Below, in pieces: positions 57,429 through 60,628 of a stretch of 64,000 nucleotides of DNA. The stretch is from Fimbriimonadales bacterium (GTDB lineage Bacteria > Armatimonadota > Fimbriimonadia > Fimbriimonadales > Fimbriimonadaceae): the NCBI GenBank assembly GCA_026418055.1, contig JAOACB010000003.1, positions 57,354 to 121,353 of the forward strand, in the 5' to 3' direction. Made by a program: the position numbers and the translations under genes. How positions within the stretch are numbered: position 1 is the stretch's first letter; each line of letters starts with the position of its first letter. Under the pieces are notes generated by a model that saw nothing but the letters and a program-made list of their open reading frames with translations, was not told where the DNA came from and ran no database searches.

Positions 57429-57824
57429 TCAGCCGACCGTCTGGATCAACCGCTGCAGGTCCTCATGCATCCGATCCCCTAGCTGACGCATCTCTTCCCC
57501 TTCGAAGAGAGACGCCATCAGCCTCGCGTCCAGCGTGTACACTGCGACGGCGTCCTCCCTCTGGACGATCGCGATGGGACAGGGCATCATCACCGCCACG
57601 CGGGGATCGTTGCGGATCGCCGTCGCGGCCATCGGCGCCTGGCAGACCTCGAGGATCGTTATCGGAATGCACTCGAACCCCTTGGAGCGGAGCGTCTGAG
57701 ACACCTGGTGGACGCCAAGGATACTGAAGCCGCTTTCGACCGCGGCCTTCTGCAACCTCTCGCACGTCTCCCCAAAGTCGTACCTGCTGACGACTCCGAT
57801 CTCCGGTCTGGGCATAGCGCTCAT
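57429..57824 (-). CDS. DUF302 family protein
   Basis: A 131-residue protein of the DUF302 family. The family core LEVCQAPMAATAIRNDPRVA followed by MMPCPIAIVQREDAVAVYTL is clear; the Cys pair lies in a conserved region that may bind a metal or ligand. Function is not known. ATG 57824 lies 6 nt after TAAGAT (57831-57836), whose position is 19 nt before the sigma-factor stop codon, so it has its own leaderless start. rarA follows by 9 nt. Confidence 0.88.
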   Translation of the reverse strand: MSAMPRPEIGVVSRYDFGETCERLQKAAVESGFSILGVHQVSQTLRSKGFECIPITILEVCQAPMAATAIRNDPRVAVMMPCPIAIVQREDAVAVYTLDARLMASLFEGEEMRQLGDRMHEDLQRLIQTVG

Positions 57825-57854: not shown

Positions 57855-59135
57855 CTAGGCGGCCTTGGGCTCGACGCCGTGCGGAACGACGCGCATGGAT
57901 TCGGAGGCAGAGCGAACCATCCCCTCCATCGTTCGGGCGTCCTCGGGGAAGCTCGAGAAGCCGATGGACACACTCACCGGGCCGCTGGCTCCGTTGCGGT
58001 GCGTCAGCCAGTTCGCGATCTTGTCCACGATCCGCTGGTGCACGATCGCCACGCGATCGCCCGTGAAGGGGAGGATGATGGCGAAGCCGTCGTTGCCGTA
58101 CCGGCTGATGATGTCGAGCCGCCGCACATTCTCCTTCAGGAACTCATGCGCGTCCGCTAGGAAGTCAAGAATCGACTGCTGGCCGTAGAAGGCGCGAAGC
58201 CTCTCGAGGCCCTGGAACCGAATGAGGATGAGGGACAGTTCCTCCTTACGGCTAGCCGCCCGGTGCACTTCCTCCTCGAGCCGAGCCCGGAAGTATCGGT
58301 GTGTGTACGCCCCGACCGCTGGATCCACCACGTCTTGGTCGAGAGCGTCCGCCTGCCGGCGCATGAGGCTCTCCGCCGCCTCGTCGTGAGACAGGATCTT
58401 GCGCAGCTTCGTGAGCGACTGCCGAAGGATGTGCGAAACGTAGTTGCAGGAGATGCCGAGCTCCGCAGCGATCTCCGTTTGGTTCTTGGCTTCGAAGTGG
58501 AAGCGCACGAGCACCTCTCGCTCGAGGTCCCTCAGCTGTTGGAGGGCCTGCTCGAGCACGACCCTGTCCTCCACCGACAGCTGCTCCGAGCAGAACTCGG
58601 CCGCGTCGAGCCGGTCGACGTCGCTGTCGGCGTCGTCGTCGTTCATCGGTGTGGAGTCGAGCGAGGCGACCTTGAGCAGATCCTGCGTGGCGAGGACGTC
58701 CTCCACGGTGTTGACGGCGACTCGGAGGTGCTCCGCGATCTCCAGAGTGGTCGGTTGCCGCCCGAGGTCCTGTTGCAGAACCGATGCCGCGCGATTGACC
58801 TTGTGCCGCAGCTCCTGGAGCCAAGCCGGTTGCCGGATGGTCTGCGAACGATCCCGCAGGTAGTGCTTGATCTCTCCAGCGACCAAATAGGTGGCGTACG
58901 TGTTGAACCTCACGCCGGCGTTCGGGTTGAACTTCGACAAGGCGTTCAGCAACCCGATGTAGCCGACTTGGATGAGGTCCTCCAACGGCTCCAGGCCCAA
59001 GAATTTCCGGGCGATGCGCTCCACCATCGACCCATACCGAACCATGATCAGATCCTTGAGATCGGGCTGCGGGTTCGCGAAGTACCGCAACACCAAATCC
59101 TCGGCGTCCTGATGCAAATCCCTTGCGTCTGCCAT
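57855..59135 (-). CDS. Sigma-70 family factor fused to a degenerate GGDEF domain
   Basis: A 426-residue two-part protein. Residues 1-250 are a SigB/SigF/WhiG-type sigma factor: region 2 (LEDLIQVGYIGLLNALSKFN at 51-70, then VRFNTYATYLVAGEIKHYLR), region 3 (about 105-160) and region 4 with a helix-turn-helix (NQTEIAAELGISCNYVSHIL at 218-237). Residues 271-415 form a GGDEF domain (DPAVGAYTHRYFRARL start, VSVSIGFSSFPEDA end). The active-site GGDEF reads GNDGF (347-351) and the first metal Asp is replaced (LILIRFQG). An RxxD inhibitory site (Arg338-Asp341) stands at the canonical 5-residue spacing. ATG 59135 has GGGAAG upstream. It follows pilC. Confidence 0.9.
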   Translation of the reverse strand: MADARDLHQDAEDLVLRYFANPQPDLKDLIMVRYGSMVERIARKFLGLEPLEDLIQVGYIGLLNALSKFNPNAGVRFNTYATYLVAGEIKHYLRDRSQTIRQPAWLQELRHKVNRAASVLQQDLGRQPTTLEIAEHLRVAVNTVEDVLATQDLLKVASLDSTPMNDDDADSDVDRLDAAEFCSEQLSVEDRVVLEQALQQLRDLEREVLVRFHFEAKNQTEIAAELGISCNYVSHILRQSLTKLRKILSHDEAAESLMRRQADALDQDVVDPAVGAYTHRYFRARLEEEVHRAASRKEELSLILIRFQGLERLRAFYGQQSILDFLADAHEFLKENVRRLDIISRYGNDGFAIILPFTGDRVAIVHQRIVDKIANWLTHRNGASGPVSVSIGFSSFPEDARTMEGMVRSASESMRVVPHGVEPKAA

Positions 59136-59157
59136 GCTTTCTTCCCTGTTCGCGTTT

Positions 59158-59209
59158 TCCCGGCGATCCCTGCCGGGCCCCGGGACTCCGCTCCCTCCTG
59201 GAGCGGAGT
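59158..59209 (-). promoter_or_regulatory. Two hairpins in the leader of the sigma-GGDEF gene
   Basis: ACTCCGCTCC and GGAGCGGAGT (59185-59209, 10-bp perfect stem, 5-nt loop) are followed downstream by CCCGGC and GCCGGG (59159-59177). They may end the pilC message or form an attenuator in the leader. No c-di-GMP (GEMM) riboswitch motif is visible. Confidence 0.5.
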
Positions 59210-59269
59210 TGGCCGGAAGGCTATTCGACTGTCTTTCCGACCGTTGCCGGGAGGTCGGACCCCCTCTGA

Positions 59270-60472
59270 CTAGTCGACGCTGTTCACGATCGTGAACACG
59301 GGCGTCATGACGGACACAGCGATGAATCCCACGACCACACCCATGAAGATGATCAGCATCGGCTCGATCATCGACGTGAGCCCCTTGATGGTCGTCTCCA
59401 CTTCCGCGTCGTAGAAATCGCCGACTTTGGTGAGCATCTCCGAGAGGCGTCCCGACTCCTCTCCGACGTCGATCATGCACGTAACCATCGACGGGAACAG
59501 GCCGGACGCCTGCAAAGGCTGGGACAGCTTCTGACCCTCGCGGATGCTCGTGCGGGTGGCGTCGATCGCGCTGGCGAGCACCACGTTCCCCAGCGTCTCG
59601 CCCACGATCTCCAGGCTGCGAAGCATCGGAACGCCGCTGCTGATCAGCGTTCCGAAGGTACGGCTGAATCGGGCCACGCTCAGCTTGAGAGACAGCTCGC
59701 CCACGATCGGAGCTCGGAGCTTCAGGTAGTCCAAGCGGTACCTGCCGCCCGGGGTGCGGGCCCACATCTTGATGCCGAAGAAGGCTCCGAACCCCGCCAG
59801 AAGAATCATCCACCAGTACGCTTGCATGAAGTCGCCGAACCCGAACAGCGCCGCCGTGACCGGCGGCAGCTCGACGTTCATGCCGTTGAAGATCTCCTTG
59901 AACTTCGGCAGAACGAAGCTGAAGAGGGCGAACAGCATCACCACGCTGAAGATGAGCACCAGCGTGGGGTACATCATCGCGCTCTTGATCTTGCCGCGCA
60001 CTTCGGCTTCGTACTCCAAGAAGCTCGAGAGCCGATCCAGGATCTTGTCCAAGATGCCGCCCAGCTCGGCGGCGCGGATCATGTTCACGTACAGCTTGTT
60101 GAAGATGTGCGGGTGCTTGGCCATGGCCTCGGCCAGAGACAGGCCGCCCTTGACGTCGAGCGCCACGGTCTCGAGCGCTCCCTTCAGCACCGGGTCTTTG
60201 GACTGGGAGGTGAGGATCTCGAGACAGCGCAACAAGGGGATGCCCGCGTCCACCATCGTTGCGAACTGCCGAGAGAAGACGACGAGGCTGCGGGGCTTGA
60301 TCCTGCCCTTGCGCTGCTTGGGCGCCGCCGACGCACGGACCTGACGAAGATCCGTGACGTGCAGGGACATGTCGCGCAGCTTCGAGAGGACCAGCTGCTC
60401 GCTGTCCGCTTCCATCGTCGACTTGACGACTCTTCCGGACCCGTCGATGGCGGTGTAGGCGTAGAAAGGCAT
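59270..60472 (-). CDS. pilC: Type IV pilus inner-membrane platform protein PilC
   Basis: A 400-residue GspF/PilC family membrane protein that links the assembly and retraction ATPases to the pilus base. It begins MPFYAYTAIDGSGRVVKSTM and has the two repeated cytoplasmic domains, each marked by FSRQFATMVDAGIPLLRCLE and FSRTFGTLISSGVPMLRSLE. The membrane helices are at about 170-190, 220-240 and 370-395 (MLIIFMGVVVGFIAVSVM). Length is normal. The sigma-GGDEF gene follows 134 nt later. The three PilT genes that would power retraction are 43 kb away. Confidence 0.95.
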   Translation of the reverse strand: MPFYAYTAIDGSGRVVKSTMEADSEQLVLSKLRDMSLHVTDLRQVRASAAPKQRKGRIKPRSLVVFSRQFATMVDAGIPLLRCLEILTSQSKDPVLKGALETVALDVKGGLSLAEAMAKHPHIFNKLYVNMIRAAELGGILDKILDRLSSFLEYEAEVRGKIKSAMMYPTLVLIFSVVMLFALFSFVLPKFKEIFNGMNVELPPVTAALFGFGDFMQAYWWMILLAGFGAFFGIKMWARTPGGRYRLDYLKLRAPIVGELSLKLSVARFSRTFGTLISSGVPMLRSLEIVGETLGNVVLASAIDATRTSIREGQKLSQPLQASGLFPSMVTCMIDVGEESGRLSEMLTKVGDFYDAEVETTIKGLTSMIEPMLIIFMGVVVGFIAVSVMTPVFTIVNSVD

Positions 60473-60628
60473 GGTTGCTTTCCGTATTCCGCAGCGGGCC
60501 AACCGGCCCTCACGAGACAGTAGAATTGTCGGCACGCCGATCGGCCATTCCCACCCGCCCGGCGGGCGGTTTGCGCCAACAGGCAAAAGTGCGTGGGGCT
60601 TTCGAACAGGCCCTAAGGAGAACCATCC

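Follow-up and report, generated by a model that had tools for sequence, protein, structure and literature searches.

A known route by which c-di-GMP reaches sigma factors runs through a separate anti-sigma protein, as in the RsiG–WhiG pair. The locus described here lies in a 64,000-nucleotide stretch of DNA from a Fimbriimonadales bacterium (hereafter the window) and raises the question of whether a sigma factor may instead carry its own receptor for this ligand, since a single gene encodes a sigma factor followed by a GGDEF domain. Our verdict is that the fusion is real, and that it is a one-protein variant of sigma/c-di-GMP control that is apparently new. An earlier note on this DNA, made from the letters alone, had arrived at the outline of this reading, and its claims are taken up below together with the results that bear on them.

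A sigma factor and a GGDEF domain in one reading frame

Pfam analysis of the 426-residue protein revealed Sigma70_r2 at residues 33–97 (54 bits), Sigma70_r3 at residues 108–166 and Sigma70_r4 at residues 197–246, all above the curated cut-offs, which places the N-terminal part in the sigma-70 family; its TIGR02937 score was 93.7 bits (NCBIfam cut-off 42.9). The best NCBIfam match was TIGR02980 (SigB/SigF/SigG) with 176.8 bits, which is below the cut-off of 234, so that TIGR02980 is the nearest family but not one to which the protein belongs. The score for the FliA/WhiG subfamily TIGR02479 (113.5 bits) was below its cut-off of 189.6. In the C-terminal part, the GGDEF profile (PF00990, cut-off 23.8 bits) matched residues 270–415 over profile positions 3–152 of 161, with the RxxD motif five residues before the GNDGF motif (Table 1). 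Thus the earlier description of one frame holding sigma regions 2–4 and a full-length GGDEF domain, with GNDGF as its motif, the first metal-binding Asp lost and RxxD at residues 338–341 with a five-residue spacing, was borne out in each particular. The strand was absent from that note (the fusion gene is on the minus strand), as were the conservation of the secondary I-site arginine residues, the Ala-Ala at the C terminus and the promoter-like element before pilC.

Table 1. Features of the sigma–GGDEF locus (positions are those of the window; residues are those of the fusion protein)
Feature	Position	Strand	Evidence
Sigma–GGDEF fusion gene	57855..59135	-	426 aa, single frame from ATG
Sigma regions 2–4 (residues 1–250), SigB/SigF/SigG-like group 3 sigma	58386..59135	-	Pfam r2/r3/r4 above cut-off
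Linker (residues 247–269)	58329..58397	-	AlphaFold2, part of continuous predicted helix 230–269
Degenerate GGDEF domain (residues 270–415)	57891..58328	-	Pfam 69.6 bits; PleD–c-di-GMP 2wb4, Z 19.2
I-site RxxD (R338-R-L-D341), equivalent to PleD R359/D362	58113..58124	-	Kept in 125/126, ranks 1 and 2 of 151
R292, equivalent to PleD R313 (I-site arginine from the neighbouring domain)	58260..58262	-	125/126, rank 3
R368, matching PleD R390, the third I-site arginine	58032..58034	-	118/126, rank 10
GNDGF replacing GG[DE]EF (residues 347–351)	58083..58097	-	GG[DE]EF in 0/126 homologues
R306 at the metal-binding Asp position (PleD D327)	58218..58220	-	Position rank 94 of 151
C-terminal Ala-Ala, candidate ClpXP degron	57858..57863	-	103/125 homologues vs 2% of ORFs
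PilC/GspF-family gene (T2SSF), directly upstream, co-oriented	59270..60472	-	Pfam/NCBIfam; adjacent in 72/93 loci
Promoter-like element GGAAT-N14-CCGACAATT	60524..60551	-	52 bp before pilC start

Distribution and origin of the fusion

Of 61 related genomes, 58 had the fusion over its whole length. When 291 genomes of the phylum were searched with a profile, the best matches reached E≤1e-90 in 34 of the 45 Armatimonadota families, with a match range that spans both domains wherever the range was visible, and 126 distinct full-length homologues were gathered. An assembly error joining two genes, which the earlier note had named as a possible refutation, was therefore ruled out by the recurrence of the fusion in 58 of the 61 genomes and in 126 distinct proteins. 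In one further family the contig (locus L213) stops within the GGDEF domain, and families f39–f43 and f45 have sigma-alone relatives only. A scan of named genomes, with 80 of 129 relatives listed, returned almost exclusively Armatimonadota labels, a few labelled 'bacterium' and one labelled as an archaeon; Fimbriimonadaceae, other Fimbriimonadales, Chthonomonadales and Chthonomonas calidirosea were among the matches listed. The C. calidirosea homologue (L176) belongs to a species of which an isolate is in culture. Locus L159 (JADZEW010000016.1), labelled Methanoregulaceae archaeon, holds a typical Fimbriimonadaceae sigma–GGDEF gene whose product is 59% identical to that of the window, which suggests a wrong label or a mixture of organisms in that record. 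The sigma-part tree was compatible with the fusion having arisen once (AU p=0.415) and with the GGDEF domain having been lost at least once; the domain was apparently dropped in lineage L214.

Catalytic decay and I-site conservation in the GGDEF domain

We ranked the 151 positions of the GGDEF domain by weighted conservation in an alignment of the 126 distinct full-length proteins. The active-site positions (the metal Asp, the substrate Asn and Asp, and the acidic residues of GGDEF) ranked between 87 and 141. The equivalents of PleD D327, N335 and D344 were variable (ranks 94, 141 and 108 respectively) and GG[DE]EF was lost in every homologue, so that the residues of an active diguanylate cyclase are lacking; the low ranks and the lost motif sustain the earlier statement that c-di-GMP synthesis is unlikely. 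The three most conserved positions were D341, R338 and R292, followed in tenth place by R368, and the lone homologue without RxxD has a gap there. In the subset less than 70% identical (n=91), R338 and D341 were each kept in 91 of 91 and R292 in 90 of 91. In PleD, one molecule supplies R359, D362 and R390 to the I-site and the adjoining molecule supplies R313 (PMC7288161); in our own alignment R368 falls on R390 with a one-residue shift in the preceding loop. The three most conserved positions are the equivalents of PleD D362, R359 and R313. Taken with the low ranks of the active site, this shows decay of the catalytic site and retention of the putative receptor site, a pattern supporting strong selection on the I-site in a catalytically dead domain. 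In sequence, RxxD, the R313 and R390 equivalents and the dead catalytic site correspond to a degenerate-GGDEF receptor of the PopA/PelD type.

The control was formed by 30 intact GGDEF paralogues of the same genomes, all of which had the catalytic residues, including the metal Asp, and 29 of which carried RxxD. Since nearly all intact paralogues carry it, RxxD alone is weaker evidence than the earlier note had claimed, and it was rejected as proof of a receptor role in favour of the ranking of all positions; the part of the argument that stood is that RxxD is kept with a dead active site. The strong evidence is this retention after catalytic loss, combined with fixation of the PleD R313 equivalent, a position that is Arg in 125 of 126 fusions compared with 8 of the 30 intact paralogues. 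RxxD is thus an inherited feature that was retained as everything catalytic went, and the partner arginine became fixed. R285, E288, E289 and Y281 on the first GGDEF helix were also nearly invariant in the fusions, but not in the intact paralogues.

Predicted structure and the recognition helix

The AlphaFold2 model of the fusion protein had a pLDDT of 86 and a pTM of 0.44, the latter meaning that the relative placement of the domains is unreliable. One predicted helix of moderate confidence (residues 230–269, pLDDT about 72–87) connects the GGDEF stalk with the recognition helix of region 4. The best structural match of model residues 231–418 was PleD with c-di-GMP, aligned over the stalk and GGDEF domain (residues 252–448), and the folds of PleD, DgcR and WspR were matched with Z 17–19, identifying the domain as a GGDEF fold; solved PleD complexes with ppGpp and c-di-GMP (9g85 and 9g86) were among the matches. 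The region-4 recognition helix ISCNYVSHILRQ (residues 227–238; 58422–58457, minus strand) is nearly invariant among the fusions and unlike the QMHVSRLQ that sigma-alone relatives have in its place, suggesting that the fusions may have a distinct -35 specificity.

Linkage to PilC

The fusion gene follows a PilC/GspF-family gene in 72 of 93 loci, both on the same strand, with the PilC gene ending about 30–300 bp before it. The deep branches L184, L185, L187, L192, L193 and L196 have, in order, a secretin, two T2SSE ATPases, PilC and sigma–GGDEF; a representative ATPase of these branches matched PilT/PilU (495.9, NCBIfam cut-off 319.1) and the secretin scored below the NCBIfam cut-offs of both PilQ and GspD. 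In Fimbriimonadaceae, the PilC gene mostly stands without other pilus genes adjoining. PilC-family genes also serve type II secretion. The genus g19 contains genomes with and without the fusion: an orthologous PilC (67–71% identity) was found in all six with it and in none of the nine without it, which had a paralogue only (41–42% identity). Because of this co-occurrence, the sigma–GGDEF gene and its PilC are taken to be inherited as one unit, and the genomes that lack both provide natural knock-outs for comparison. A subclade of g19 (G128 and eight other genomes, including a 5.2-Mb single-contig genome) has lost sigma–GGDEF and its PilC and kept other PilC paralogues. Thus, of the earlier proposal that pilC stands directly upstream and points to pilus or surface genes as targets, the linkage was strengthened by joint gain and loss, and pilus genes are still putative targets.

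Downstream of the sigma gene, at a distance of 30 bp, lies a DUF302 gene (57429–57824, minus strand) that is probably co-transcribed with it; it is a neighbour within the genus only, and was for this reason dropped as a part of the system. The gap between pilC and the sigma gene (59133–59275, minus strand) contains a 10-bp hairpin with perfect pairing, CTCCGCTCC/GGAGCGGAG, and no T run; it may act as an attenuator or be a site of processing. Taken whole, the gap folds slightly better than shuffles, and with a z of only -1.6 and no Rfam match at 57–61 kb, a riboswitch for c-di-GMP or other RNA element close to the gene was rejected.

A promoter-like element upstream of pilC

The region upstream of pilC includes CCGACAAT. 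Among known promoter consensuses, those of SigB, SigF and the housekeeping sigma gave no clear excess over shuffles there, and the FliA-like pattern alone stood out, which led to the element. It is present as (GTT)GGAAT-N14-CCGACAATC, or a close form, in most distinct loci, about 36–61 bp before the pilC start, and its -10 half resembles the FliA/WhiG -10 GCCGATAA, with 42 of 111 regions within one mismatch against 9.8 expected (duplicates included). Although 67 of 84 distinct upstream regions scored above the 99% level of shuffled sequence, the matrix had been derived from these very data and coding sequence accounts for some of the matches; about 28 of 41 non-redundant non-coding upstream regions have the element at the same distance. 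When the motif search was run unsupervised and started at random, it missed the element (score 579.5, compared with 688.3 when seeded), and we therefore read the element as a seeded, not an independent, discovery. The genome of the window and its sister genome each have one exact full match, the remaining matches being mostly chance-like, although the former has 48 matches within two mismatches compared with 13 for the reversed control, and from the genome-wide search of these two genomes no regulon could be named. The element is the probable promoter of the pilC–sigma unit, and we infer that the fusion sigma itself may recognize it. A single exact match per genome is a narrow regulon for a sigma factor, which counts against the mechanism proposed below.

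The C-terminal Ala-Ala tail

The Ala-Ala end was scored among the 125 homologues with a stop codon, five of which end in Val-Ala, and the background among ORFs of the same loci was 19 of 942. The tail is 7–23 residues long and variable in sequence, yet the Ala-Ala end is kept. Most of the deepest fused branches are without the tail, but have the I-site. The genome's own tmRNA (ssrA) tag, ANNNYAYAA, ends in -AA, and ClpX is present. Non-polar C-terminal residues are recognized by ClpXP (PMC8973945), and the free C-terminal -AA of a ClpXP substrate is found in the 103 homologues that end in Ala-Ala. On this evidence the tail probably makes the fusion protein a ClpXP substrate with fast or ligand-gated turnover, for which PopA offers a parallel that we take as a lead.

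c-di-GMP signalling proteins in the host genomes

Intact diguanylate cyclases, EAL proteins and PilZ proteins are present in the same genomes, and c-di-GMP should therefore exist in these cells. The genome of the window has eight GGDEF matches (this one included), one EAL protein and two PilZ proteins. At three loci of family f5 (L035, L037 and L038) an intact cyclase gene is transcribed away from pilC, and another f5 genome, the fourth (G048), has an intact GGDEF gene nearby. At L036 the gene before pilC encodes a PilZ protein. Most genomes of the order also have weak partial GGDEF matches (profile about 3–133, in frames of about 440–480 aa; for example, G041:C1:2697352-2697720 and G043:C141:9076-9441), which may be another degenerate GGDEF family.

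Proposed mechanism and alternative explanations

We think it rather probable that a c-di-GMP receptor is built into this group 3 (SigB/F/G-like) sigma factor, and we infer the following course for it. The GGDEF domain would no longer make c-di-GMP. A c-di-GMP dimer would sit at the inhibitory site formed by R338, D341 and R368 and completed, as in PleD, by R292 of a second molecule, so that the ligand would pair two sigma–GGDEF proteins. Because, in the model, the recognition helix of region 4 continues into the stalk, pairing could alter the contact of sigma with core RNA polymerase or with -35 DNA and so switch transcription; by analogy with RsiG–WhiG, we lean to the direction in which c-di-GMP holds sigma inactive. 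The targets would probably include its own unit of pilC and the sigma gene, reached by way of the promoter-like element, and thereby type IV pilus or related secretion genes, with ClpXP turnover through the conserved Ala-Ala tail as a likely second layer. A bolder form, which we put forward tentatively and hold to be doubtful, is a phylum-wide class of one-protein sigma factors in which c-di-GMP pairing both switches sigma and gates its degradation by ClpXP, while sigma transcribes its own pilC unit; if true, this would be a surface-signalling loop built from a single regulatory polypeptide.

The conserved tail also allows that the GGDEF domain mainly sets the amount of sigma and not its activity, c-di-GMP at the I-site exposing or hiding the Ala-Ala so that ClpXP degrades the protein at one ligand level and leaves it intact at the other. 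Persistence of the end despite the variable tail, the -AA of the ssrA tag and the presence of ClpX all agree with this, and it would be a one-protein version of PopA, a c-di-GMP-binding protein that has a degenerate GGDEF domain with RxxD and brings CtrA to ClpXP (PMC12564702, PMC8973945). However, the deepest fused branches mostly keep the I-site without the tail, so that degradation cannot be the sole role of the domain there, and we regard this explanation as possible, at well below even chances. The I-site residues might otherwise form a docking surface, between proteins or within the molecule (for example, with the sigma part), or a site for another nucleotide such as GTP or ppGpp. The near-invariance of R285, E288, E289 and Y281 in the fusions would be expected of an interface, and PleD has been solved with ppGpp as well as c-di-GMP; but an arbitrary interface is unlikely to pick, as its three most conserved positions, the c-di-GMP ligands of PleD including the partner arginine, which leaves this explanation improbable. 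That the GGDEF domain is a vestigial passenger on an ordinary alternative sigma factor would fit the lost catalytic site, the lower mean conservation of the GGDEF part (0.35 compared with 0.55 in the sigma part) and the apparent loss in L214. A passenger would not, however, be kept at full length in 34 families with invariant I-site residues, and this reading is strongly disfavoured, with very little probability left to it.

If the built-in receptor is real, such a sigma factor would wire the RsiG–WhiG logic more directly, in a form to which another phylum apparently came independently, again in connection with pilus-type genes. One protein may then link a surface-lifestyle signal directly to transcription across most of the Armatimonadota, a little-studied phylum in which the fusion makes c-di-GMP control testable. 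It would also offer a natural ligand-gated sigma factor for study, and a clean example of how an enzyme domain can become a receptor, with the record of that change preserved.

Comparison with known systems

No published sigma–GGDEF fusion was found in the open-access papers that were searched, a scope that does not prove priority; this agrees with the earlier note, which knew of no described protein of this kind. In family terms, the sigma part shares regions 2, 3 and 4 with SigB/SigF/SigG, its best match, but it scores below the cut-off of that family and differs in the near-invariant recognition helix and in the C-terminal GGDEF fusion. The GGDEF domain shares its fold, stalk and I-site residues with PleD of Caulobacter; PleD, however, is an active cyclase, whereas the fusion GGDEF has lost all catalytic residues. 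PopA of Caulobacter (REC-REC-degenerate GGDEF) is similar in that RxxD is retained beside a dead active site, that ligand probably drives dimer formation and that a link to ClpXP is possible, but is an adaptor acting on another protein, whereas the GGDEF domain here is part of the regulator and has no REC domains. PelD and other degenerate-GGDEF receptors of c-di-GMP likewise have an I-site receptor without cyclase activity, a role that in the fusion is read from sequence; PelD, which sits in the membrane and serves exopolysaccharide synthesis, has no sigma part.

In the RsiG–WhiG system of Streptomyces and Rubrobacter (PMC8325347), a group 3 sigma factor is under c-di-GMP control, as is proposed here. 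In Rubrobacter, the separate c-di-GMP/anti-sigma/WhiG switch has been inferred to control type IV pili, promoter analysis linking the sigma factor to type IV pilus genes and to cyclase and phosphodiesterase genes (PMC8325347). That system differs in having two proteins and another binding fold, as c-di-GMP is bound by the separate small helical anti-sigma RsiG, whereas the candidate receptor here is the fused GGDEF domain of a sigma factor that falls below the FliA/WhiG cut-off; by locus comparison, no RsiG-like gene stands out in the conserved neighbourhood of the fusion gene. Taken together, RsiG–WhiG is the nearest known system in logic and, in Rubrobacter, in target, and PopA and PelD are the nearest in the behaviour of the domain.
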